Shown here one piece after another: positions 4,308-22,198 of a stretch of DNA of 25,142 bases. Each line of letters starts with the position of its first letter. The first letter of the stretch is position 1. The stretch comes from a virus. Position numbers and translations under genes: made by a program. The notes beneath the pieces were generated by a model. It searched no databases and was not told the DNA's origin. It was given only the letters and a program-made list of their open reading frames with translations. The stretch lies in IMG/VR virus record IMGVR_UViG_3300025282_004735, positions 1 to 25,142 of that record. One strand, 5' to 3'.

Positions 4308-4622
4308 TCATGTGTTGTCACCCGTTGTTTTTCCAGTCTCTTTCGCGTCATCAGTTGCCGATGTTCCGCTTTCGTTGTCAGACAGACGCGCATTATGCGC
4401 ATTTGGTGGCGTGGGGAGCGGCTGACTGTCTGGGTGCACTTCAATTCGACTCCTCCAGAATGGGCCTCTTTCCCGGACTCGATGACGTGACGTGGATGAC
4501 CGTAGGTAAGCTCCGCAGTTCGAGCACAGCGCATCTTGGAAAAACCACGGATCGGAAAATGATACGCGGTGTGGGACGCCATCTCCGCACTCACAAAAAA
4601 ATCTTACAGCCCAGTTTCTCAT
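4308..4622 (-). CDS. Small putative zinc-ribbon protein downstream of integrase
   Basis: This 104-residue ORF starts with an ATGA overlap with the integrase stop, the coupling style seen throughout this operon. It has two cysteine pairs spaced like a zinc ribbon, FFCECGDG near residue 10 and LCSNCGAY near residue 33, then a charged, proline-rich and probably disordered C-terminus. It ends 13 nt from the tRNA fragment, so it would be the last phage gene before the att site. The function is unknown. The metal-site pattern and the overlap support it, but no family was recognised. Confidence 0.55.
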   Translation of the reverse strand: MRNWAVRFFCECGDGVPHRVSFSDPWFFQDALCSNCGAYLRSSTSRHRVRERGPFWRSRIEVHPDSQPLPTPPNAHNARLSDNESGTSATDDAKETGKTTGDNT

Positions 4623-5614
4623 CCCGCTATCCTTCCTGTTACACTTCTCGAATAATCTTCACTGAACCGCGCATAGTGCTTGCGCACGGTCTCGATATTG
4701 TCATCCAGCAAATACGCCGCTTGCTCGAACGTACCGCCATTGCTGACCAGCCATGAGGCGGCTGTCCGGCGCATATCGTGGATTGTCACGTCCTCAATGC
4801 CTGACAGGCGCTTGGCGGTGCTGAACGCGGTCTTTACCGCCTTGACCTGCTTTCCCTTCCACTGGACCACATAGGGGCCTTCAGCGAGCAGTGCGGCCTT
4901 GCCTAGCTGGATTGCCAGCGGCGCATTGCAGGCCACCCACGGTGTGCGGGATTTGCGGCTTTCGGTTTGGGGGAACCAGATCCCCGACCGCTCCCAGTCA
5001 ATATCGTCCCATGTCAATTCCAGGATTGCGGCCTTGCGCTGTCCGGTGAACACGGCGATGGCCAGAAACGTTTGCAGGTGAGGCGCTGAGGCGTCCCATA
5101 GGCGGGTGAACTCTTCCCACGTCAGGAACCTGTCACGGGGCGCTGACGGGCGCGGAGCTTCGATATAGGGCAAGCGGTCGATCCATCTCATCTTGAAGGC
5201 CCAGTGCAGGGCAGAGCGCAGAGCGCGGCATTCGGCATTGATCGTGCTGTTGGAGACACCGCCAGCGCGACGGGCATTGTGGTACATGCGCACTTGTGGG
5301 CGGGTCAGGTCATCAGGCTCATACGCGCCGAGGATTTCCTTCACGGGTTTCAGCCGGTAGAATACCGTTGCCGGATCACGGATGCCGTCTTCGGTGCGGT
5401 CCTTCAGGTAGGCGTCACAGATGTCAGCCACGAGCGCCCCCGGCTCCGGCATTTCCATTTCGGTGATGAAGCGCGCTTTCCATTGCTCGGCTAGCCCCTT
5501 GCTTTCTTCGCCGGTAGAGCGGCGATGACTGCGGCCATTCTCGGACCACGTGACGAACCAGACGCGGCTTCTTTTTCCATTGATGACGGGTCGTTTAAGA
5601 TGGTACTTTCGCAT
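4619..5614 (-). CDS. int: Tyrosine-type site-specific integrase
   Basis: This integrase catalyses phage recombination between attP and the tRNA-Pro attB. Its 331 residues are a normal length. An N-terminal arm/core-binding region is followed by the catalytic domain with Arg193 (FTGQRKAAILEL), a probable Lys221, His279 and Arg282 (IHDMRRTAAS) and nucleophile Tyr314 (ETVRKHYARF). The usual LGH box reads LDD, so the third-box His/Trp is replaced by Asp. ATG 5614 is chosen because GGAGG lies 10 nt upstream. A GTG at 5635 is less likely. The gene overlaps the excisionase-like gene by 124 nt in another frame and sits at the end of the pL operon with no promoter of its own visible. Confidence 0.95.
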   Translation of the reverse strand: MRKYHLKRPVINGKRSRVWFVTWSENGRSHRRSTGEESKGLAEQWKARFITEMEMPEPGALVADICDAYLKDRTEDGIRDPATVFYRLKPVKEILGAYEPDDLTRPQVRMYHNARRAGGVSNSTINAECRALRSALHWAFKMRWIDRLPYIEAPRPSAPRDRFLTWEEFTRLWDASAPHLQTFLAIAVFTGQRKAAILELTWDDIDWERSGIWFPQTESRKSRTPWVACNAPLAIQLGKAALLAEGPYVVQWKGKQVKAVKTAFSTAKRLSGIEDVTIHDMRRTAASWLVSNGGTFEQAAYLLDDNIETVRKHYARFSEDYSRSVTGRIAG

Positions 5615-5775
5615 TCGATATAGTCCTCCAGCCACTCCATCTTGAACCGCAATAGTTTACCAAGCTTAGCGCATTTCAGTTTACCCTCATCCACGCGCCG
5701 GCGCACTGTGGAATCAGAACAGCCGAGATAATCCGCTGCTTGCTGAACCGTCAGGAGGGGTTGCGGCCTGCTCAC
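5491..5775 (-). CDS. Excisionase-like helix-turn-helix protein
   Basis: This 94-residue protein carries a MerR/excisionase-type winged HTH (LLTVQQAADYLGCSDSTVRRR, then KLKCAKLGKLLRFKMEWLEDYIE). Proteins of this kind bend DNA at att sites and direct excision, and its place next to the integrase supports that role. The GTG at 5775 is preferred because it overlaps the previous stop as GTGA with GGGAAG just upstream. A longer frame reaching 5856 would begin with non-HTH sequence overlapping the previous gene. The last 124 nt also encode the integrase N-terminus. Confidence 0.8.
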   Translation of the reverse strand: MSRPQPLLTVQQAADYLGCSDSTVRRRVDEGKLKCAKLGKLLRFKMEWLEDYIECESTILNDPSSMEKEAASGSSRGPRMAAVIAALPAKKARG

Positions 5776-12530: not shown

Positions 12531-12547
12531 GTAACGCGTGGCGTTAT
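12531..12547. promoter_or_regulatory. Operator 2 (upstream of pL)
   Basis: GTAACGCGTGGCGTTAT is a 17-bp palindromic site centred 34 bp from operator 1, about three helical turns, which allows side-by-side or cooperative binding. It covers the TAA stop codon of the repressor gene. Confidence 0.8.
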
Positions 12548-12879
12548 TCGTTGGCGGCTCGTATCAGCTTGAGGGACCGCTCGCGTTGATCCGGCTTCAG
12601 AGAGCGCATGTAGCCGACAAGATCGACAACATCGCCATCAACGTCCGGATTGACTGAAATGAGCGCCCACTTCGGGACAGCAAGGGCAATGGCGAGCGCC
12701 TCCAGGATTGGCTCACTGTAAGGCTGCATACCCCGTTCTATACGGGAAAGGCTCATTGCGCTGATGAGTTCGACACCCGGCTCTGTTTCCATACGCGCTG
12801 CCAGCTTGGCAAGGGAGAGCCCTGCTTTCTGCCGCCATTGCTTGATATAGTGGTTCGGCTGGGTGTCACCTTTACTCAT
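12544..12879 (-). CDS. Short XRE-family phage repressor (CI-like)
   Basis: This 111-residue protein has an XRE-type helix-turn-helix over residues 11-71 (YIKQWRQKAGLSLAKLAARM, AMSLSRIERGMQPYSEPILE, LAIALAVP) and a short C-terminal helical tail (LVGYMRSLKPDQRERSLKLI). It lies opposite the Cro-like gene and is bordered by five operators, so it is the likely lysogeny repressor. It lacks the S24/LexA-like peptidase domain, so RecA-stimulated self-cleavage is not expected. The ATG 12879 has no strong ribosome binding site. Its own promoter appears to contain operator 4, which suggests autoregulation. Confidence 0.85.
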   Translation of the reverse strand: MSKGDTQPNHYIKQWRQKAGLSLAKLAARMETEPGVELISAMSLSRIERGMQPYSEPILEALAIALAVPKWALISVNPDVDGDVVDLVGYMRSLKPDQRERSLKLIRAANE

Positions 12880-12939: not shown

Positions 12940-12967
12940 TTGACCACGTAACGCCGGGTGTTATGAT
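12940..12967 (+). promoter_or_regulatory. Promoter pR of the rightward operon
   Basis: TTGACC (12940-12945) and TATGAT (12962-12967) are separated by 16 nt, a near-consensus sigma-70 promoter. Operator 5 fills the spacer. The expected start of transcription (about 12974-12975) coincides with the second candidate ATG of the Cro-like gene. Confidence 0.82.
12948..12964. promoter_or_regulatory. Operator 5 (pR spacer)
   Basis: GTAACGCCGGGTGTTAT is the best match to the shared consensus and lies between the -35 and -10 of pR, in the same relative position as operator 1 in pL. Confidence 0.82.
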
Positions 12968-12974
12968 GCCAATC

Positions 12975-13178
12975 ATGACACATCCCATCAAAAGCTGGCT
13001 GGACGCCAACGAGACCACTCAGGAGGCTTTTGCCGCCGACGTGGGCATATCACGGATGCAGCTCTGGCGCATCATGAATGGGTCAATGCCGTCGCGTGAT
13101 ACGGCGCTGGCAATACAGGAAGCAACGAATGGGGCGGTGAAGGCAGCGGTTCTCCTGAAGCTGGAGGATGCAGCCTAG
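12975..13178 (+). CDS. Cro-like helix-turn-helix regulator
   Basis: This 67-residue protein is a single HTH domain (residues 13-51: TTQEAFAADVGISRMQLWRI, then MPSRDTALAIQEATNGAV), the size and layout of YdaS/Cro-type regulators. It is the first gene from pR, divergent from the repressor, so it should bind the same operators and favour lytic growth. An ATG at 12963 in the same frame would lie inside the -10 box, so the ATG at 12975 is preferred. That ATG falls at the predicted transcription start and has no ribosome binding site, so the mRNA may be leaderless. The protein ends LEDAA. Confidence 0.82.
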   Translation: MTHPIKSWLDANETTQEAFAADVGISRMQLWRIMNGSMPSRDTALAIQEATNGAVKAAVLLKLEDAA

Positions 13179-14535: not shown

Positions 14536-15026
14536 GCGACGCGATTTACGCTATTTCCGTTCGGCAGCCTTGGGCGTGGGCGCTGATTCACGGCGGAAAG
14601 GATGTCGAGAACAGGACAAAGGCCCCACAGGGAACATCCAATCTCATAGGCCACAGGTTCTGCATACACGCCTCCAAGGGAATGACGCAATACGAGTATG
14701 AGTGTGCTGCTGATTTCATGGCAACTTTGGGTGTCGAGTGCCCGCGTCCTGACAGGTTATTTCGTGGCGGTATCATTGGCTCTGTGCGCCTTGATCACGT
14801 GACTAGCGAGTATTCAAGCCGGTGGTTTTTCGGGCCGCGAGGGCTGATTGTGCGAGAGCCTCAGTCCTGCGACCCGGTGGCGGCATCGGGACAGCTCGGG
14901 TGGTTCAAGTGGAAGCCGTCTGGCGCTCTGGAGGAGCCCAAGCCGTGGATGGTGAAATGGCCCAACCAGACCATCAAACGCGCCGCTGAGAATGCGCCGC
15001 TACCGTTGTGGGAGGGGGCCGAATGA
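14532..15026 (+). CDS. ASCH-domain protein
   Basis: This 164-residue protein begins with the ASCH signature (YAISVRQPWAWALIHGGKDV followed by ENRT) and has the later GGIIGSVRLDHV strand of the fold. ASCH domains are PUA-related and bind RNA or modified nucleotides, and some act as nucleases or hydrolases. Phage copies are common but their role is mostly unknown. ATG 14532 overlaps the previous TGA. Its end holds GGAGGGGG, a strong ribosome binding site for the following gene. Confidence 0.85.
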   Translation: MSDAIYAISVRQPWAWALIHGGKDVENRTKAPQGTSNLIGHRFCIHASKGMTQYEYECAADFMATLGVECPRPDRLFRGGIIGSVRLDHVTSEYSSRWFFGPRGLIVREPQSCDPVAASGQLGWFKWKPSGALEEPKPWMVKWPNQTIKRAAENAPLPLWEGAE

Positions 15027-15208
15027 CCCGCTGCACCCGCCCTTCCTGCCCCCACACAGCAGAGCCTGCAAAGACCGTCACGGGCGAGCCTCTCTGCCAT
15101 CGTCATTTGATGGATGACCGCTGGGCCGCCCGCTCTGGCGCTGAACGATACGACCGCAATGCGCGGATGCCAGCCACATTCAAAAACAACAAGGGGGTAT
15201 ATTGCTGA
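15023..15208 (+). CDS. Small Cys/His zinc-finger protein
   Basis: This 61-residue protein has Cys4, Cys9, Cys25 and His28 (CTRPSCPHTAEPAKTVTGEP, then LCHRHL), a single treble-clef or finger-like unit resembling the two units of the HNH protein upstream. The function is unknown. It is coupled by ATGA to the ASCH gene and by TGATG to the HTH gene after it. Confidence 0.68.
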   Translation: MTRCTRPSCPHTAEPAKTVTGEPLCHRHLMDDRWAARSGAERYDRNARMPATFKNNKGVYC

Positions 15209-15579
15209 TGCCTAAGAAACTTCCGAGTTCCACGACGGACCTGATCCTGAAGCTGCACGATGAAGGCTATCACAATGCCGAAATCGCCAAGCGCGCCAGA
15301 TGCTCACGGCCTTTCGTCACAACAACATTGCAGGACGCAGGGAGAAAGCGCAACCGGGTAGGAGCTATCGCTGGACGCCCCGGCTTGCGGCATCTCGAAA
15401 AGCTCGCCTTTCAAAGCGCTCAGAAGAACGCTCGCCGCCTTCGGGACCGCCTTGTCCGCATCTATGAAAGCGCCTCCGACGAGGCCGCCCTGGATGCGAT
15501 CGATGCGCTGTGTGAAGTCGATGCCGCGATTGACCGCATAGGCCGCAGCCGAAGCGCCAAGCGCCGGAGGATCGCATGA
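15208..15579 (+). CDS. Helix-turn-helix phage protein
   Basis: This 123-residue basic protein has an N-terminal homeodomain-like HTH (STTDLILKLHDEGYHNAEIA and KRARCSRPFVTTTLQDAGRK), then a helical, Arg-rich C-terminus. It is probably a DNA-binding regulator or replication accessory protein. ATG 15208 is used because it overlaps the previous stop. A TTG at 15202 is closer to the AGGGGG ribosome binding site and would add two residues. Confidence 0.7.
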   Translation: MPKKLPSSTTDLILKLHDEGYHNAEIAKRARCSRPFVTTTLQDAGRKRNRVGAIAGRPGLRHLEKLAFQSAQKNARRLRDRLVRIYESASDEAALDAIDALCEVDAAIDRIGRSRSAKRRRIA

Positions 15580-15839
15580 CCCTCGATCAGATCGCAATCA
15601 AGATGGGCGCTGAGGGTAACGGCAAGGCGCCTCACAACATCCAAGGCTTCGCTGTCAGGGCGTTTGCGGACGGCCATAGCCTTCAGGACATTCAGGACTA
15701 CACGGGCCGCTCTGAGATGGCCCTCATCCACATGATCCGCTTCGCCTGCATGACGGACAATTGCCGGTCCTACAGCCGCTCCCTCTCGCAAATCAAACAA
15801 CAGCTTTCGCAGGCTGAACTCGGAAGGGGGCAGGGATGA
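15576..15839 (+). CDS. Small helix-turn-helix phage protein
   Basis: This 87-residue protein has a predicted HTH (RAFADGHSLQDIQDYTGRSE followed by MALIHMIRFACM), similar in plan to the gene before it. It may bind phage DNA, but the target is unknown. ATGA overlaps join it to both neighbours. Its end encodes GRGQG over a strong ribosome binding site (GGAAGGGGG). Confidence 0.66.
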   Translation: MTLDQIAIKMGAEGNGKAPHNIQGFAVRAFADGHSLQDIQDYTGRSEMALIHMIRFACMTDNCRSYSRSLSQIKQQLSQAELGRGQG

Positions 15840-16390
15840 GCAAGACCAAGTTCAACATAGACGAATGCCGACAGCGCGCGATGAGCCGGTTCAAGGATAC
15901 CGCCCTGCAGTCTCGTGTGTTGCGGGCTGAGGAAGACGCCTTGAGGGATTTCTCCAATCTCTTGGCGGAGTGTGAGAGCCCAATCGAAATGTCGCTTCTG
16001 ACGGCCATGTTCGACAACCCATCATTTGATGGCTTCGCTTTCACACCAAAGCAGCACCACCGTTTTTTCTTTCATGCCGCCAGAGACAAATGCGTCTGCG
16101 CTCAGTTCCAGATTGACCGGTTTCGTTGCGACTTCGCACTGACCGTCCAGCATCCGTATGGAACCAGAACGAAGATCGTCATCGAATGCGATGGCCATGA
16201 CTATCACGAGCGCACCAAAGAGCAGGCGCGCCGCGACAGATCGAGAGATCGCCTGATGACCGCCGATGGCTGGCGTGTTCTCAGATTCACCGGATCCGAA
16301 ATTCATCGCGACGCTGATGCGTGCGTCGAGGAAATCGCGTCCATCATCGAAAACGACAGCATAGACGACTGGAGAAGCGCCAATGGCTAG
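15836..16390 (+). CDS. DUF559/Vsr-like PD-(D/E)XK endonuclease
   Basis: This 184-residue protein has the layout of Vsr-fold nucleases: ESPIEMSLLTAMF (Glu51), FQIDRFRCDFALTVQ (Asp99), IVIECDGHDYHERTKEQARR (Glu117) and a C-terminal RDRLMTADGWRVLRFTGSEI with the trailing Cys-Val-Glu-Glu helix. DUF559 proteins are related to very-short-patch repair and restriction endonucleases. Between HTH genes and the replication initiator it could act in DNA repair, resolution or host DNA degradation, which cannot be decided here. Confidence 0.8.
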   Translation: MSKTKFNIDECRQRAMSRFKDTALQSRVLRAEEDALRDFSNLLAECESPIEMSLLTAMFDNPSFDGFAFTPKQHHRFFFHAARDKCVCAQFQIDRFRCDFALTVQHPYGTRTKIVIECDGHDYHERTKEQARRDRSRDRLMTADGWRVLRFTGSEIHRDADACVEEIASIIENDSIDDWRSANG

Positions 16391-17300
16391 CGTCCCGTTT
16401 ATGCCCCTCTACACATCTGACTATCTGGGAGACACGGGGCATCTCTCAACTGAACAGCATGGGGCATACATGCTCCTGCTCATGCAGATGTGGAATGCCG
16501 GGGGCTCGCTTCCGAACAACAAGCAAATCCTGGCGCGCATGGTTCGCTGCTCCACCAAGAAGTGGGTAGCAATGTCCGACATCATTCTTGAGTTTTTCGA
16601 GGTGGGTGATGACCGAATTTCGCACAATCGCCTGACATTTGAGCGCCAAAAGGTTGAGGGAAAAATCGAAAAGAGGCGTGCCGCTGGGGCATTGGGTGGA
16701 AAAGCTAAGGCACTGAAAAATAAGGAAACAGGCCTAGCAAAAGCTAAAGCAAAAGGGGTAGCAAAACCCTGCCATTCTCCAGAACCAGAACCATCTACTA
16801 CTGACGTAGTAGACAACGGGGGCGATCTTCAGACCGCTTTTGATGCGTACGTGAATGTCGCCAAACGACTTGAGCGTGAACGCGGTAGCCGGGTTTGGCC
16901 GGTGAACATCACCTTCACGAAAGAACGCAAAGCTCGCCTGAAAGCTCGCATCCGTGAACATGGCCTTGATGCATGGGGGACGGTCCTGCGCAAGGCGGCC
17001 GCTTCCCCGCACTGCACTGGCGCGAACGGCTGGGCAGCCGACTTTGATTTTCTCACCAGCAAATCCGGATTCTTGAAGACCCTTGAAGGAAACTACGATG
17101 ACCGCTCTGCAAACGTACAGCCGCTCCGCCGAAGTGGCGCTGCCCAATCCGGAGGATGTTCTACAGCTGAGGACAGCTTTGACCGAGCTCTCGCGAGCAT
17201 GGCGGGAGACGCCCCCCGGTCAGCCGATCCAGCATGGGATGACGGATTCACAATTGAGGGGGAGGTTGCAATTGCTGCAGCAGGCTCAGGCTATCGGTAG
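16383..17300 (+). CDS. DUF1376-domain phage replication protein
   Basis: This 305-residue protein has an N-terminal DUF1376 (YdaU-like) domain (PFMPLYTSDYLGDTGHLSTE, AYMLLLMQMWNAGGSLPNN), a winged-helix-like unit seen in phage replication initiators. A Lys/Ala-rich linker (AKAKAKGVAK) and a C-terminal domain (VWPVNITFTKERKARLKARI to ANGWAADFDFLTSKSGFLKT) follow. Its position matches the lambda O slot, so it probably recognises the phage origin. The last 67 codons overlap the next gene in another frame by 203 nt. It starts 8 nt before the previous stop. Confidence 0.85.
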   Translation: MASVPFMPLYTSDYLGDTGHLSTEQHGAYMLLLMQMWNAGGSLPNNKQILARMVRCSTKKWVAMSDIILEFFEVGDDRISHNRLTFERQKVEGKIEKRRAAGALGGKAKALKNKETGLAKAKAKGVAKPCHSPEPEPSTTDVVDNGGDLQTAFDAYVNVAKRLERERGSRVWPVNITFTKERKARLKARIREHGLDAWGTVLRKAAASPHCTGANGWAADFDFLTSKSGFLKTLEGNYDDRSANVQPLRRSGAAQSGGCSTAEDSFDRALASMAGDAPRSADPAWDDGFTIEGEVAIAAAGSGYR

Positions 17301-17571
17301 CGTTCAGGAGGTTGGTCACGTGGTGAAGCGACTTCTGCTGAACTACTGGCCAGCTGGTAAGCCTGTCCCTCAGACCGTTGTGCAGGACTGGGTGCGCCAC
17401 CTCGTCGACCAGCCCTTCGCCAGCATCTTCGAGTGCTACGAGCGCCAGATCCGCTCCACAGACGATTGGGCTCCGCGGGTTGGGCAATTCCTGGAGAAGG
17501 TCCAGCGCCACGCCCAGCAAGTGAAGCACATCGAAGATGCCCTTCGCCTTTCCATTTCCGACAGAACCTAA
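17098..17571 (+). CDS. Hypothetical phage protein in the lambda P position
   Basis: This 157-residue helical protein (MTALQTYSRSAEVALPNPED, LRTALTELSRAWRETPPGQP, WVRHLVDQPFASIFECYERQ) follows the DUF1376 gene, where lambdoid phages carry a helicase loader. No Walker motif is visible, so a DnaC-type ATPase is excluded and its role is unknown. ATG 17098 has GAAGGA 7 nt upstream and is preferred over a start at 17083. It overlaps the upstream gene by 203 nt in a different frame. Confidence 0.75.
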   Translation: MTALQTYSRSAEVALPNPEDVLQLRTALTELSRAWRETPPGQPIQHGMTDSQLRGRLQLLQQAQAIGSVQEVGHVVKRLLLNYWPAGKPVPQTVVQDWVRHLVDQPFASIFECYERQIRSTDDWAPRVGQFLEKVQRHAQQVKHIEDALRLSISDRT

Positions 17572-17591
17572 ACCAACAGGGGGACTAAACC

Positions 17592-17954
17592 ATGAACTAC
17601 ACATGCGTATGTTGCGGAGTAAAGATTTCGCCACTCGATATCCGCAACAAGATCCGCGCTCACGAGCATGAGGTGTCGAGCTTCTATAGCGTTTCCATCG
17701 ACCTGATCAAATCACCCACCAGGGCATCACACGTTGTCGAGGCACGTCATGAGCTTTGGTATCGGATGGTTGCGCTTGAAGGCCGCAGCAGCAAGTGGGC
17801 TGCCAACTGGACCGGCCATGATCATTCGAGCGTCCTCTATGGCGTCAAGCACTACGCTGGAATGCTTCACGGCACACCACGGGACGCCAGCCTCAAAGAC
17901 ATCCGCCAAGCCGCACAGGCCCCCTTGCTGAAACTGATGGAGGAAGCAGCGTGA
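17592..17954 (+). CDS. DnaA-domain-IV-like DNA-binding protein
   Basis: This 120-residue protein has a Cys-rich start (YTCVCCGVKISPLDIRNKIR) followed by a region like the DnaA C-terminal DNA-binding domain: VEARHELWYRMVALEGRSSK, then TGHDHSSVLYGVKHYAG, equivalent to the DnaA signature GRDHTTVLHA. It lacks the AAA+ ATPase domain. Such proteins could bind DnaA boxes and either recruit or compete with host DnaA at the phage origin. It has GGGGG upstream and ends MEEAA over the next start. Confidence 0.78.
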   Translation: MNYTCVCCGVKISPLDIRNKIRAHEHEVSSFYSVSIDLIKSPTRASHVVEARHELWYRMVALEGRSSKWAANWTGHDHSSVLYGVKHYAGMLHGTPRDASLKDIRQAAQAPLLKLMEEAA

Positions 17955-18145
17955 GACAGTCGCCTCCGCGCTTGCGGGTCAATGCTGACTTTCAGGGCGA
18001 GATTTCCCTTACGGACTGGTGGCGATCGCTCGCTCCTATTGAGCGTCTGGATCTGCTCCGGGATTGGATCTTCGACTTAAGCAACCTTTACGATCGGGAG
18101 CTTGCATTGCTCCACGTCATTCCAGGAAAGGACACGAAGCAATGA
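17951..18145 (+). CDS. Small hypothetical phage protein
   Basis: This 64-residue protein is not recognised. It begins at GTG 17951, overlapping the previous stop as GTGA, and ends with an ATGA overlap into the NusG-like gene. It contains a helical stretch (WWRSLAPIERLDLLRDWIFD) without obvious motifs. Coupling on both sides is the main support. Confidence 0.62.
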   Translation: MRQSPPRLRVNADFQGEISLTDWWRSLAPIERLDLLRDWIFDLSNLYDRELALLHVIPGKDTKQ

Positions 18146-18663
18146 CCCAATGGTTTGCGTTCAGTTGCCGGGCGAACCAGACAGCCCAAGCCGCCAATCG
18201 TCTAGGCCGTGCGATGGGGTGCGATGCCTTCGCGGTCATGAGAACATACCGCAAGCGCGTCCCCCGTGAGCCTCGCCGCAAGACGGTGACAGAGTGCGCC
18301 TTGAAGTCCTACATCTTCGCAGGCTTCGAGTATGCGCCCAACTTCCTCGCCATCCAGAACATGCCGGGGCCACGGATCTACCCGATCAGCTTTGCAGGCG
18401 AGATCAAGCCGCTCAACGGCATTGCAGACCTGAAGTGGATCACGGGCGAATTGCCCAAGCCCTTGCACCGGCACTATGACATTCCGCGCCATCGCCAGCA
18501 ACACCGGTACCAGGCTGGCGACTTCGTTGAGGTTGAGAACATCGGCCCGGTTGAGGTGGAATGCGTTGACGGGGAGAATCTGCGTCTGGCCTTGCGGTTT
18601 CTTGGCCGCCCTGTGACAATGCGGGCAGAGGATGCGCAGTTGGCACTCAGGAGGGTTGCGTGA
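18142..18663 (+). CDS. NusG-like transcription (anti)termination protein
   Basis: This 173-residue protein has the NusG plan. An N-terminal domain begins QWFAFSCRANQTAQAANRLG and includes KSYIFAGF, equivalent to the NusG PGYV strand (residues 56-62). A C-terminal KOW-like domain (YQAGDFVEVENIGPVEVECV, then LRFLGRPVTMRAEDAQL) matches the NusG 'G-D-x-V...FGR' pattern. NusG-family proteins bind the RNA polymerase clamp and control pausing and termination. At the end of the early operon, followed by two strong terminators, it is a candidate late-gene antiterminator. This role is inferred from position. Confidence 0.82.
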   Translation: MTQWFAFSCRANQTAQAANRLGRAMGCDAFAVMRTYRKRVPREPRRKTVTECALKSYIFAGFEYAPNFLAIQNMPGPRIYPISFAGEIKPLNGIADLKWITGELPKPLHRHYDIPRHRQQHRYQAGDFVEVENIGPVEVECVDGENLRLALRFLGRPVTMRAEDAQLALRRVA

Positions 18664-19136
18664 GGGGCGTCCTCAAAAACCCAGAGCGGGTCCGGTTTAT
18701 GCGGATCGACATAGAGCGAAGCCCTTGGAAGTGGCATCCTACCATCTCGATCACTCGCCCGCCAGACCGACTCGAATATTGGCCATCCAAACTCGACCGG
18801 GGCAGGCTCCCATATGGTCGGGTGCTGGCGTACTTCTGGAATAGGAAGCAGTGGTATTTCCACACGAGGCCAAGGTGGCTGTTGAAGCTGGAGTTTGACA
18901 GGAACTGGAAAGGCGTGAACGGTCGGATCATCGTTTGTGGCCGCGTGCTCTGGCAGGGAGAGAATTGGCGCGGCCGCTACAAGTTCATGGAACGCCAGCG
19001 TTTTTACGACTGGCGGGAAATTAAACAGGCGCTTTTCGTCTTCTGGTCGATGGAGTTCCTGACGGCAATCGCAGCCCTTGACCCGCACACCAAATCACCG
19101 GATAAGGGAAACAGTTCACCGCGGTCGATGCCCTGA
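18660..19136 (+). CDS. Hypothetical phage protein, last of the rightward early operon
   Basis: This 158-residue protein is not recognised. It is basic and rich in tryptophan and arginine (YFWNRKQWYFHTRPRWLLKL, GRVLWQGENWRGRYKFMERQ), suggesting nucleic-acid contact or a beta-rich fold. It begins at GTG 18660 overlapping the NusG-like stop (GTGA). The C-terminal ~25 residues look disordered. It is the last gene before the terminators. Confidence 0.62.
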   Translation: MRGVLKNPERVRFMRIDIERSPWKWHPTISITRPPDRLEYWPSKLDRGRLPYGRVLAYFWNRKQWYFHTRPRWLLKLEFDRNWKGVNGRIIVCGRVLWQGENWRGRYKFMERQRFYDWREIKQALFVFWSMEFLTAIAALDPHTKSPDKGNSSPRSMP

Positions 19137-19270
19137 GAGGATTGTTCGCCCGGTGCCGGGGCTGGAACACCGCGAGCGCGATCACCAGACCCCAAGTTTT
19201 TTCCATGTCTGAAATCCAGAGCAAGCAGCGGCAGCTTAGTCCCCCCGGCCTGTCCGCCGTTGCAAGCAAG

Positions 19271-19305
19271 CCCCGTGCTTCCTGTTTGGAGGCGCGGGGT
19301 TTTTT
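19271..19305 (+). terminator. Rho-independent terminator 1 after the early operon
   Basis: CCCCGTGCTTCC (19271-19282) pairs with GGAGGCGCGGGG (19288-19299) in a 12-bp stem with a 5-nt loop, followed by six T residues. The 19137-19523 region holds this, a second terminator and a structured segment, but no convincing gene. Confidence 0.88.
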
Positions 19306-19349
19306 CATAGGGTGAGGCCCTATTCGGCAGGGCTTCATACCATCACCTT

Positions 19350-19395
19350 GAGCCTGCGGTGCCTCCTCTGACATTCCTACCCGCAGGCTCTTTTT
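19350..19395 (+). terminator. Rho-independent terminator 2
   Basis: GAGCCTGCGG (19350-19359) and CCGCAGGCTC (19381-19390) form a perfect 10-bp stem with a 21-nt loop, followed by TTTTT. It lies 45 nt after terminator 1, so the two act in tandem between early and late genes. Confidence 0.8.
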
Positions 19396-19404
19396 CCCCA
19401 TCGG

Positions 19405-19480
19405 CATCCAGCCAGGCACTTATTCAGAAACCCGTTCTGTTGCGGAACGCTCACTTCGTCGGTTCAACCTGGCTGGATAC
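19405..19480 (+). other. Structured segment upstream of late genes
   Basis: ATCCAGCCAGG (19406-19416) is complementary to CCTGGCTGGAT (19468-19478). Inside it, CGTTCTG (19433-19439) and CGGAACG (19443-19449) form a 7-bp hairpin with a 3-nt loop. It could be a structured leader RNA or a protein-binding site just before the first late gene. Confidence 0.5.
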
Positions 19481-19523
19481 CCATGCGGAAATGAAAGGGA
19501 CGCACAATGGAAGGCACGAGAGC

Positions 19524-19841
19524 ATGAAGTACGAAGTCAAAGGGCTATTCAGCTACGGCGTTTACGATGGCGACCGTTTGCTTGGCACCTACGAAAGCGA
19601 GAAGTCAGCCACTCTGGTCTGTGATGCGCTGAATGACGAGGCTGCGCGGGTGTTGGTCGATCCTGCTGTCGGTCAGTCTGTCGTCAATCCAGCGCGCGAC
19701 GCTGACATTGAGGCCCTTCAAGGCTTGGGTTGGGCCGTTGAGGAGCGCCAGCAGGTCGTAGGCGCAGGGCAGTTTCCGCCCATTACTGGTGATGGAAACG
19801 CTAGCGCCTTCACCAACGGCCAAGACAAGGAGACAACCTAA
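19524..19841 (+). CDS. Hypothetical protein, first late-region gene
   Basis: This 105-residue protein is not recognised. It starts MKYEVKGLFSYGVYDGDRLL, a small beta-type start, and continues with STA-like acidic helices and a disordered tail. ATG 19524 is used because GAAGG lies 9 nt upstream. The frame is open to 19359, but that part has no ribosome binding site and overlaps terminator 2. It overlaps the next gene by one base (TAATG). Confidence 0.62.
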   Translation: MKYEVKGLFSYGVYDGDRLLGTYESEKSATLVCDALNDEAARVLVDPAVGQSVVNPARDADIEALQGLGWAVEERQQVVGAGQFPPITGDGNASAFTNGQDKETT

Positions 19842-20065
19842 TGGCTATCCTATCCCCCGAGGCCAAGAAGAATGCCAAGCCATTCATCAACGCCCTTTGG
19901 ACCGCCCTTGTGGTCATGGTCTGCATTGCGCTGGCCTGCAAGTACATCCTGAGCGGTTACCCGCCGCTGATTGCCTTCCTTGAGCCGTTCGCTGAGCTGA
20001 CCATCGTTCTCGGCATGATCGGCGTTGGCCTGATCGTCGCGGATCGGAACCCGCTGGTTAAGTGA
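19841..20065 (+). CDS. Small membrane protein, candidate holin
   Basis: This 74-residue protein has two hydrophobic segments, ALWTALVVMVCIALACKYIL (about residues 19-38) and IAFLEPFAELTIVLGMIGVG-LIVA (about 44-67), with charged ends (PEAKKNAKPF, RNPLVK). The size and two-span layout suit a class II holin, and it lies just before the terminase genes. No endolysin gene is in the window, so the lysis role is tentative. The ATG overlaps the previous TAA. Confidence 0.7.
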   Translation: MAILSPEAKKNAKPFINALWTALVVMVCIALACKYILSGYPPLIAFLEPFAELTIVLGMIGVGLIVADRNPLVK

Positions 20066-20271
20066 TGACCTCGAAGGTGATTGAAGAGTACAGCACCGAA
20101 AACGGCTCATGGCGATATGGTCTTGAGGTTGATGGCGCATTTTGTGGATTCTCCGGCGTTGGCGTTCCGCTTGTTCCGATGCCCGGAATGACGGCTGAGG
20201 ACCTGCTGAAAATGGCTGAGTTTGAGAGTGCCGACTCTATCAAGCTTGCTGGCGGTGAGAGCCGGGACTAA
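20065..20271 (+). CDS. Hypothetical phage protein
   Basis: This 68-residue protein is not recognised. It reads as a small beta-rich protein (ENGSWRYGLEVDGAFCGFSG) with an acidic C-terminal helix. A TGATG overlap joins it to the membrane protein before and a TAATG overlap to the 30-residue membrane peptide after, so the four small genes are read together. Confidence 0.6.
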   Translation: MTSKVIEEYSTENGSWRYGLEVDGAFCGFSGVGVPLVPMPGMTAEDLLKMAEFESADSIKLAGGESRD

Positions 20272-20363
20272 TGCCTCCCCCCGAGATCATCTTCTACCTC
20301 CTGATAACCGCCATCATCATCGGCGGCATCCTGTGGGCCATGAAGGGCATACTCGGTGACTGA
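20271..20363 (+). CDS. 30-residue membrane peptide
   Basis: This short ORF (MPPPEIIFYLLITAIIIGGI, then LWAMKGILGD) has one strong hydrophobic stretch of about 20 residues. It begins at a TAATG overlap and its end overlaps the next small ORF by 8 nt. Phage peptides of this kind can serve lysis, but there is no homology evidence. Confidence 0.55.
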   Translation: MPPPEIIFYLLITAIIIGGILWAMKGILGD

Positions 20364-20451
20364 CCTTCGCCGCTCTCTCCTATCTATCTCTATAGCCCTG
20401 ACCGCCCTCGCTGTCGGGGTGACTGCTTTGGTGGTGAATTTCGCAACCTGA
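20356..20451 (+). CDS. 31-residue membrane peptide
   Basis: Starting at GTG 20356 inside the previous ORF, it encodes MTDLRRSLLSISIALTALAV and GVTALVVNFAT, a short basic head followed by a hydrophobic span. The paired, overlapping arrangement of two membrane peptides resembles small lysis or spanin-like pairs, but neither has the lipobox of Rz1. The confidence is modest because such short frames occur by chance. Confidence 0.45.
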   Translation: MTDLRRSLLSISIALTALAVGVTALVVNFAT

Positions 20452-20550
20452 GTTTGCAATCCCCGCCGGGTGGATACCCGAAACCGGCAACCAAAAATAG
20501 CACCTTATCGACAATCAATCTGGGACGCCGCGAAAGTGGCGGGAGGATGA

Positions 20551-20856
20551 ATGGCAACCGCAAAGTCTAAACTAGACGGAACTAGAAAGAAGACAGGCGG
20601 CCGCAAGAAGGGCACGCCGAACAAGACGACCGCACTTCTGAAGGACGCGATTATCGAAGCGGCCACAAAGGCAGGAAACAAGGAAGGGCTTGTTGGCTAC
20701 CTTACGCGCCAGGCTGATGAAAACCCTGCTGCGTTCATGACGCTTCTTGGCAAGGTCCTGCCGATGCAGGTGACCGGTGAGAACGGCGGCCCGATCAAGG
20801 CGACCACGCGCGTTCAGCTCATCGCAGTAAGTCCGAGTGACAACGCTAAGGATTAA
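20551..20856 (+). CDS. Putative terminase small subunit
   Basis: This 101-residue basic protein (TRKKTGGRKKGTPNKTTALL, KDAIIEAATKAG) resembles small phage packaging proteins with the 'GRKKGTPNKTT' N-terminus, and is placed directly before the large terminase. The small subunit recognises phage DNA and feeds it to the motor. ATG 20551 follows GGAGG at 20542-20546. The 20452-20550 gap has a small hairpin (20467-20480) and no gene. Its last 20 nt overlap the large subunit start. Confidence 0.75.
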   Translation: MATAKSKLDGTRKKTGGRKKGTPNKTTALLKDAIIEAATKAGNKEGLVGYLTRQADENPAAFMTLLGKVLPMQVTGENGGPIKATTRVQLIAVSPSDNAKD

Positions 20857-22198
20857 AATCCCCGAGAAGCTTGCTCCTGTCTTTGAGGGAGAGGCTCGCT
20901 ACAGAGGCGCTTGGGGTGGTCGCGGATCTGCAAAGACGCGCACCTTCGCAAAGATGGCGGCTGTGATCGGCGCCCTCGCTGCTGAGGCTGGCGAAGAGGG
21001 CATCGTGCTTTGCTGCCGCCAATTCATGAACAGCCTTGATGATTCTTCGCTGGCAGAGGTCAAGGCTGCGATTTCGTCAGAGCCTTGGCTGGAAGAGAGA
21101 TACGAGGTTGGGGAAAAATACATCCGCACGGTTCCGCAGCTGGCGGGGCGTGTTGATTTCAAGTTCGCAGGTCTCGACCGCAATTTGGACAGCATCAAAT
21201 CAAAAGCGCGCATTCTCCTGTGTTGGGTGGATGAGGCGGAAAACGTCATTGAAGCAGCGTGGGTCAAGCTGATCCCGACCGTTCGGGAAGACAATTCCGA
21301 GATCTGGGTCACGTGGAACCCTGAGAGCACACGAAGCGCGACACACAAGCGTTTCCGTCTGAGTGAGCCAAACCGCTCCAAGATTGTCGAAATGAACTGG
21401 CGCGATAACCCGTGGTTTCCGTCAGTGCTTGAAGAGGAAAGACAGAACGACCTTCGCGACCGACCTGACCAGTACGAGCACATCTGGGAGGGTGATTTCA
21501 AGACGGTCTACGAGGGCGCTTACTATGCCAAGTCGCTCATCAAGGCGAAGCATGACGGTCGCATCAAGGATTTGCACGTTGAGCCGTCACTGACTGTTCG
21601 GACGTGGCACGACCTCGCAGGTGCTGGAGACAAGGCGGACGCTTACTCGATCTGGGTTGGCCAGTTCGTGGATCAGCAAATCTGGCTGCACGGCAATTAC
21701 AGCACCGAGGGCCAGCCGAGCGCGTTCCACATCAACTGGCTGCGTCAGTGGTGCCTTGATCGGGGCATCAAGCGCTGCATTGTCACGCTGCCGCACGATG
21801 GCGACCAGGTGAAGCAGGATTACAGCTGGCGCAACATCTGGAACGCGGCCTCAGAGCCCGGCGTCGTTGAGTTCATTGTGGAGGTCGTCCCCAATCAGGG
21901 GCGCGGCGCTGCAATGAAGCGAATTGAAGAGGGCCGGAAGGTCTTTCCTCGTGTCTGGTTTGACGAAAAGGGAACGCAGGCCGGTCGGGAAGCCTTGGCG
22001 GCCTATCACGAAAAGCGTGACGAGAACCGAAGCGTGGGCCTCGGGCCAAATCACGATTGGGCGTCACACGACGCAGACAGCTTTGGCCTGATGGCCTGCA
22101 CCTACAAGCCTCCGGGCCAATCGGCTGATGCGGAGGAGCTCATGGCAGCATTGTACAGCAAGGGATCGCGCCGACCGGCGGGATATTTGGGTAATTGA
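20837..22198 (+). CDS. Terminase large subunit, PBSX/Terminase_3 type
   Basis: The 453-residue DNA-packaging motor combines an ATPase and a nuclease. The Walker A motif is GGRGSAKT (27-34), Walker B is ILLCWVDEAE with Asp132 and Glu133, and the coupling motif is WVTWNPES (157-164). The C-terminal nuclease region begins at RTWHDLAGAGDKADAYSIWV and includes NHDWASHDADSFGLMA near the end. Start GTG 20837 overlaps the small subunit. It pumps DNA into proheads together with the portal encoded downstream. Confidence 0.95.
   Translation: MTTLRIKIPEKLAPVFEGEARYRGAWGGRGSAKTRTFAKMAAVIGALAAEAGEEGIVLCCRQFMNSLDDSSLAEVKAAISSEPWLEERYEVGEKYIRTVPQLAGRVDFKFAGLDRNLDSIKSKARILLCWVDEAENVIEAAWVKLIPTVREDNSEIWVTWNPESTRSATHKRFRLSEPNRSKIVEMNWRDNPWFPSVLEEERQNDLRDRPDQYEHIWEGDFKTVYEGAYYAKSLIKAKHDGRIKDLHVEPSLTVRTWHDLAGAGDKADAYSIWVGQFVDQQIWLHGNYSTEGQPSAFHINWLRQWCLDRGIKRCIVTLPHDGDQVKQDYSWRNIWNAASEPGVVEFIVEVVPNQGRGAAMKRIEEGRKVFPRVWFDEKGTQAGREALAAYHEKRDENRSVGLGPNHDWASHDADSFGLMACTYKPPGQSADAEELMAALYSKGSRRPAGYLGN

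Follow-up and report, generated by a model that had tools for sequence, protein, structure and literature searches.

A divergent NusG paralogue before the late genes of a prophage, with a conserved promoter, leader and two terminators, as a candidate late-gene switch

A prophage carried by the 25,142-base IMG/VR record IMGVR_UViG_3300025282_004735 (the whole stretch analysed here, referred to as the window) encodes a protein that, by profile comparison, is a very divergent full-length NusG paralogue. The gene closes the rightward early operon and is followed by a putative promoter, a structured leader and two terminators, whose order and sequence are conserved among relatives. We propose that the protein is probably a processive antiterminator of the NusG family that acts like lambda Q, as a portable late-gene switch. 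NusG is a universally conserved host elongation factor, and to our knowledge the late switches of temperate phages outside the enterobacteria are mostly unknown. Here the phage appears to have made its late switch out of this host factor, with a target that is compact and conserved (promoter, leader and two terminators). The range of NusG paralogues would thereby widen from host operons to the late control of phages.

The rightward early operon runs from the cro-like gene through the replication gene and the DnaA-C ORF to the NusG paralogue, with the cI-like gene on the opposite strand (Table 1). This order bears out the first-pass annotation, which had put a NusG paralogue near the end of the early operon. 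Together with the NusG homology, the order of early and late genes also upholds its view that an unrelated, NusG-type protein occupies the position of lambda Q. The DnaA-C ORF (17592-17954) appears to encode the DnaA C-terminal (DnaA-box binding) domain without the ATPase, and a further ORF in the early operon, 15836-16390, a DUF559/MTES_1575 (Vsr-like) nuclease.

Table 1 Features of the window, with their coordinates and the basis of each assignment
Feature	Coordinates	Strand	Basis or remark
Host genes alaS and homoserine O-succinyltransferase
Integrase	4619-5635	leftward
cI-like gene	12544-12879	-
cro-like gene	12963-13178	+
Replication gene, DUF1376/primosomal	16383-17300		Pfam/PHROG scans
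DnaA-C-like ORF	17592-17954		two genes before the NusG paralogue gene
NusG paralogue, NGN + KOW, 173 aa	18142-18663	+	hhalign, weak Pfam/PHROG matches, relatives
Cargo ORF, variable	18660-19136	+	between NusG gene and late promoter; 3' end overlaps promoter
Candidate sigma70-like late promoter (pR'-like), TTGACC-17-GATAAG	19078-19106	+	motif conservation
CAAATCACC block in promoter spacer, candidate recognition element	19091-19099	+
Leader hairpin A	19117-19155	+	fold
Leader hairpin B, GGGGCTGG...CCAGACCCC	19158-19193	+	stem nearly invariant, L002 included
Conserved box AAATYCAGAGCAAGCAGCGG	19212-19231	+	near-invariant across loci
Leader hairpin C	19221-19267	+	fold, near-invariant stem
Terminator 1	19268-19305	+	-28.5 kcal/mol, z -5.9
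Middle hairpin D	19313-19337	+	folds in 11/11 loci with different letters
Terminator 2	19350-19395	+	-19.4 kcal/mol, z -6.3
Long inverted repeat before late genes	19406-19478	+	11-bp perfect stem, z -3.7 for 19403-19485
Terminase PF04466, then P22-like portal PF16510			after both terminators

The NusG paralogue starts with the ATG at 18142, which overlaps the stop of the preceding gene. Matches to the single sequence are weak, both for Pfam PF02357 (NusG; E 0.0085, 17 bits where the cut-off is 22.2) and for PHROG 6386 ‘transcription antiterminator’ (E 0.0013), and the best PDB sequence match, RfaH, reached only E 0.06. We used hhalign to compare a profile of ten family members with NusG/RfaH proteins, mostly from alphaproteobacterial genomes. 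The alignment spans residues 1-166, covering both NGN and KOW (P 95.5%, E 1.6e-8, score 55.4), against a top score of 17.9 among 30 column-shuffled control profiles. This result confirms the earlier assignment as a phage NusG paralogue; the NGN domain is recognised by the profile, with the single-sequence Pfam match below cut-off, and GDFVEVENIGPVEVECVDGENLRLALRFLGRPVTMRAE is aligned to the NusG KOW. The Pfam scan gave no KOW match in the protein, while the KOW region has a local β-strand model (pLDDT 57-81). The C-terminal end is also NusG-like, LGRPVTMRAE being aligned to FGRATPVELD. The lambda Q families PF03589, PF06530 and PF06323 were not matched, NusG alone being returned by the Pfam scan. 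The AlphaFold model is poor overall (mean pLDDT 48), and a Foldseek search with it placed Spt5 and NusG chains among the top matches at E values of only 0.07-0.9. Given this model quality, we set the structure aside as evidence for the fold.

Downstream of the NusG gene, the cargo ORF has no family match in Pfam or PHROG, and its identity to the ORFs of relatives (0.36-0.47) is at the level of shuffled sequences. The slot mostly holds different ORFs in the relatives, including HNH-type and methyltransferase-type genes (judged by eye) and several unknowns; a cargo ORF is common to L005 and L030. A loading site had been sought in 18660-19270. Most of that interval is the non-conserved ORF, and the conserved non-coding part is 19078-19267. 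The sought region is present, and it opens with a sigma70-like promoter of its own, so that the arrangement resembles lambda (Q plus pR' plus tR') more closely than first described.

This promoter escaped a generic promoter scan, which accepts only -10 elements ending in T. Over 60% of alphaproteobacterial promoters are without T at -7 (PMC8407463), and a rule suited to alphaproteobacteria replaced the generic scan. On the + strand of the 25 kb, this rule gave two promoters only, 12940, before the cro-like gene, and 19078, the sole candidate in the early-to-late interval, upstream of both terminators. The exact pattern has a single occurrence in the window, and none of 100 shuffles of the window contains it. 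All 11 loci compared have TTGAC, 17-18 bp spacing and GATA(A/G), directly after or overlapping their cargo ORFs. The ORF start at 12963 falls within the early candidate (12940-12967, TTGACC-16-TATGAT). Since another in-frame ATG, further on, lies near the expected transcription start, the cro-like mRNA may lack a leader. From terminator 2 to the late genes we found no promoter even under a relaxed sigma70-like rule, including 19396-19523, where a strong late promoter had been named as the finding that would refute a switch.

Within the spacer of the 19078 promoter, the first half varies and AAATCACC is invariant in all aligned loci, although the block CAAATCACC also served as the anchor for extracting loci. 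This invariance would suit control of initiation by another factor that binds CAAATCACC, with the terminators only insulating and the NusG paralogue doing something else, and in alphaproteobacteria, -10 elements that lack T at -7 can require factors such as CarD (PMC8407463). However, the terminators separate the promoter from the late genes, which would stay off under initiation control alone, and we consider this explanation very unlikely.

The leader is structured and extends for ~160 nt from the predicted transcription start, about 19113, up to terminator 1; leader and terminators together fold with z -3.7. Hairpins B and C hardly vary across loci. In the most divergent protein relative (L002, 48% identical), an unrelated hairpin, ACATGAG...CTCATGT, replaces hairpin A at the same place, and AAATCACC, GGGGCTGG...CCAGACCCC, the AGAGCAAGCAGCGG box and hairpin C are kept. 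Covariation in hairpin D did not beat shuffles and was not significant. We did not take a short open frame running through terminator 1 (19205-19315) as a gene; it has no conserved start and is interrupted by an in-frame stop in L007, L009, L010 and L030. Rfam gave no relevant match in 15000-21000, and no tRNA was found in the window.

Two strong terminators before the late genes had been described at 19271-19305 and 19350-19395, and the folds obtained here agree. None of 200 shuffles folded as well as terminators 1 and 2. The window has U-tracts of T6 at terminator 1 and T5 at terminator 2. In most relatives, terminator 1 has only a short U-tract, CTTTC or TTTTC, whereas the five T's of terminator 2 are kept in all loci. 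Thus, to judge from these tracts, terminator 2 may be the real barrier in most relatives. Such terminators bear on a different role for the protein, in which it would shield the late operon from Rho and polarity and couple it to translation in the manner of RfaH, the terminators being overcome otherwise. RfaH-type paralogues do act in this way (PMC5449661, PMC7593976), and the KOW domain is retained. However, two strong intrinsic terminators directly behind a conserved leader are hard to account for without a factor that defeats them, and LoaP shows that NusG paralogues can do so (PMC12691694); we regard an RfaH-like role as distinctly unlikely.

Relatives were found by protein patterns plus terminator or promoter DNA searches. 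Counting the window, the module of promoter, leader, terminator 1 and terminator 2 is conserved across 11 loci, lying 0.2-0.8 kb after the NusG gene in the ten others, with protein relatives at 48-80% identity. Leader identity to the window (0.63-0.78) is comparable to that of the NusG gene (0.62-0.76), the intervening cargo ORF being at shuffle level. Members of the family occur on roughly twelve IMG/VR contigs and in a single Pseudooceanicola MAG. This MAG is the single genome with the protein among 397 family-level and 385 class-level genomes, and the single one with a convincing leader among 393 order-level genomes. Short leader matches in nine host genomes lie inside unrelated coding frames and were taken as chance. 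GenBank phages yielded no relatives of the protein (tblastn) or the DNA (blastn).

Comparison of the loci indicates that the packaging modules downstream differ, with at least three kinds (Terminase_3/P22 portal, Terminase_6N and SU10 portal). In L009 the module is intact and the DNA after terminator 2 is different. From L009 and the varied packaging modules, it appears that gene, promoter, leader and terminators stay together while cargo and late genes change. This linkage is in part shared ancestry, since the relatives are one phage group. The inverted repeat at 19406-19478 is common to the window, L002 and L003, with a different sequence in the other relatives; it contains an inner hairpin and could be a cos/pac site or serve RNA stability. 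If an unrecognised promoter after 19396 served the late genes, the module would be a small-RNA gene, and the conserved inverted repeat could be cited in its favour. However, no sigma70-like site lies there under the relaxed rules, and the altered DNA of L009 also speaks against it, making such a promoter extremely improbable.

Several loci vary the module. L008 and L010 have extra cargo genes between hairpin C and terminator 1, plus a hairpin GCCCCCGGCGC...GTGTCGGGGG. The same ~120 nt insert splits the leader of L003 and L026 and duplicates the ATYCAGAG box. A 57 kb phage (L028) has two close copies of the terminator 1 hairpin, one of them after a tRNA-like sequence, and no NusG gene or leader was found in it. 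Terminator 1 is therefore not diagnostic, and the L028 copies are probably a more widely shared terminator sequence.

In lambda, pR' makes the 6S RNA, which ends at tR', and N has two nut sites. We propose that transcription would likewise start constitutively at the 19078-19106 promoter and give a structured leader RNA (~190 nt) ended at terminators 1 and 2, as 6S RNA is at tR'. The early operon, once it has run long enough, would yield the NusG paralogue, which could load on polymerase during leader transcription through a signal in 19091-19267, for which the spacer block, the AGAGCAAGCAGCGG box and hairpins B/C are candidates. The protein would then stay bound through its NGN domain and take the polymerase past both terminators and into the terminase, portal and other late genes. 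The promoter-spacer block (compare the lambda QBE) and the leader RNA (compare LoaP) are both almost invariant, so conservation does not distinguish them as loading signals.

The protein might instead behave like N, loading on polymerase from the early promoter at 12940 and carrying through the early operon and both terminators, with 19078 minor. The TTGACC-16-TATGAT candidate lies just upstream of the cro-like gene, the NusG gene is inside that operon, and factors of the NusG type serve in elongation and antitermination (PMC7819879). However, the conserved leader is located after the NusG gene, directly behind its own promoter. When the window and its relatives were searched with a covariance model, hairpins B-C did not convincingly recur in any of them apart from the insert-split L003 and L026, as against the two nut sites of N. 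We consider N-like action unlikely.

The layout is that of a lambda-type late switch, sharing with Q/pR'/6S/tR' a protein gene that ends the early operon, a sigma70 promoter, a ~190 nt leader and a strong intrinsic terminator before the late genes (the lambda side in part from PMC7171158 and in part from general knowledge). A possible recognition block in the promoter spacer is also common to both (compare the QBE, PMC7171158). It differs in having a NusG-family protein without a Pfam Q match, a structured leader, two terminators and a cargo slot; we also looked for a promoter-proximal sigma-dependent pause element, and the -10-like sites in the first 30 nt matched at no more than 3 of 6 positions, none of them clear. 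LoaP, a Bacillus NusG paralogue, has a leader RNA hairpin followed by an intrinsic terminator as here (PMC12691694), but it is host-encoded, serves antibiotic operons and uses a UNCG hairpin, whereas the present protein is phage-encoded, precedes phage late genes and has other hairpins; a UNCG loop with two or more closing pairs was looked for in the leader and not found. RfaH shares the NGN + KOW architecture (PMC7593976, PMC5995543), but the phage protein is very divergent, and a search of 19078-19395 for the RfaH ops element, allowing 2 mismatches, found none. Reviews describe rfaH-like genes on prophages and plasmids (PMC7593976), and also cite work on the Serratia antifeeding prophage (PMC6391919). 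AlpA of Pseudomonas aeruginosa is a probably phage-derived antiterminator that behaves like Q (PMC7969949), but is not reported as NusG-related and acts on chromosomal self-lysis genes.

A second case is found in Microcystis phage vB_MweS-yong2 (OM681334), where a NusG paralogue is encoded by the last gene; it matches PHROG 6386 at E 1.9e-19 and exceeds the Pfam cut-off. The two ends of the record share ATGCGAAAGCGG, and reading across them gives the gene, then CCCCGCG-loop-CGCGGGGTTTTT, then the terminase small subunit at base 70. As in the window, a NusG paralogue thus appears to be the last early gene before a terminator and terminase, here in an unrelated phage: searches of the phage collection detected no pairwise similarity between the yong2 protein and the window family. 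We found no characterised function for the yong2 gene. Its protein has a sole viral-contig relative (L060), which begins inside the gene and added nothing. The yong2 genome (L033, L034) looks GC-rich and lambda-like in layout, and its true host may not be Microcystis.

The chances appear even that these systems form a distinct class of phage late switch, in which a NusG paralogue is recruited by a multi-hairpin leader or promoter-spacer element (neither ops nor the LoaP hairpin) as a cassette before unrelated late modules, and which has more than one origin among phages. Processive antitermination of late genes is itself known, and we found no description of the NusG-family version or of a phage NusG paralogue as a late switch in the open-access papers searched. 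To that extent the switch can still be called previously undescribed, with the qualification that PHROGs and one GenBank phage record carry NusG-like ‘antiterminator’ annotations. A search rule for annotating late switches in alphaproteobacterial phages follows from the arrangement, namely to look ahead of the terminase for a hairpin leader with a NusG paralogue beside it.

In another phage type, six contigs (L012, at 2278-2358, and L013, L014, L015, L016 and L017) retain no more than the first 21 codons of the NusG-like gene, the truncated gene forming a conserved 26-aa ORF, MTHW[FY]AFSCRADRTEAAANRLDGETS.
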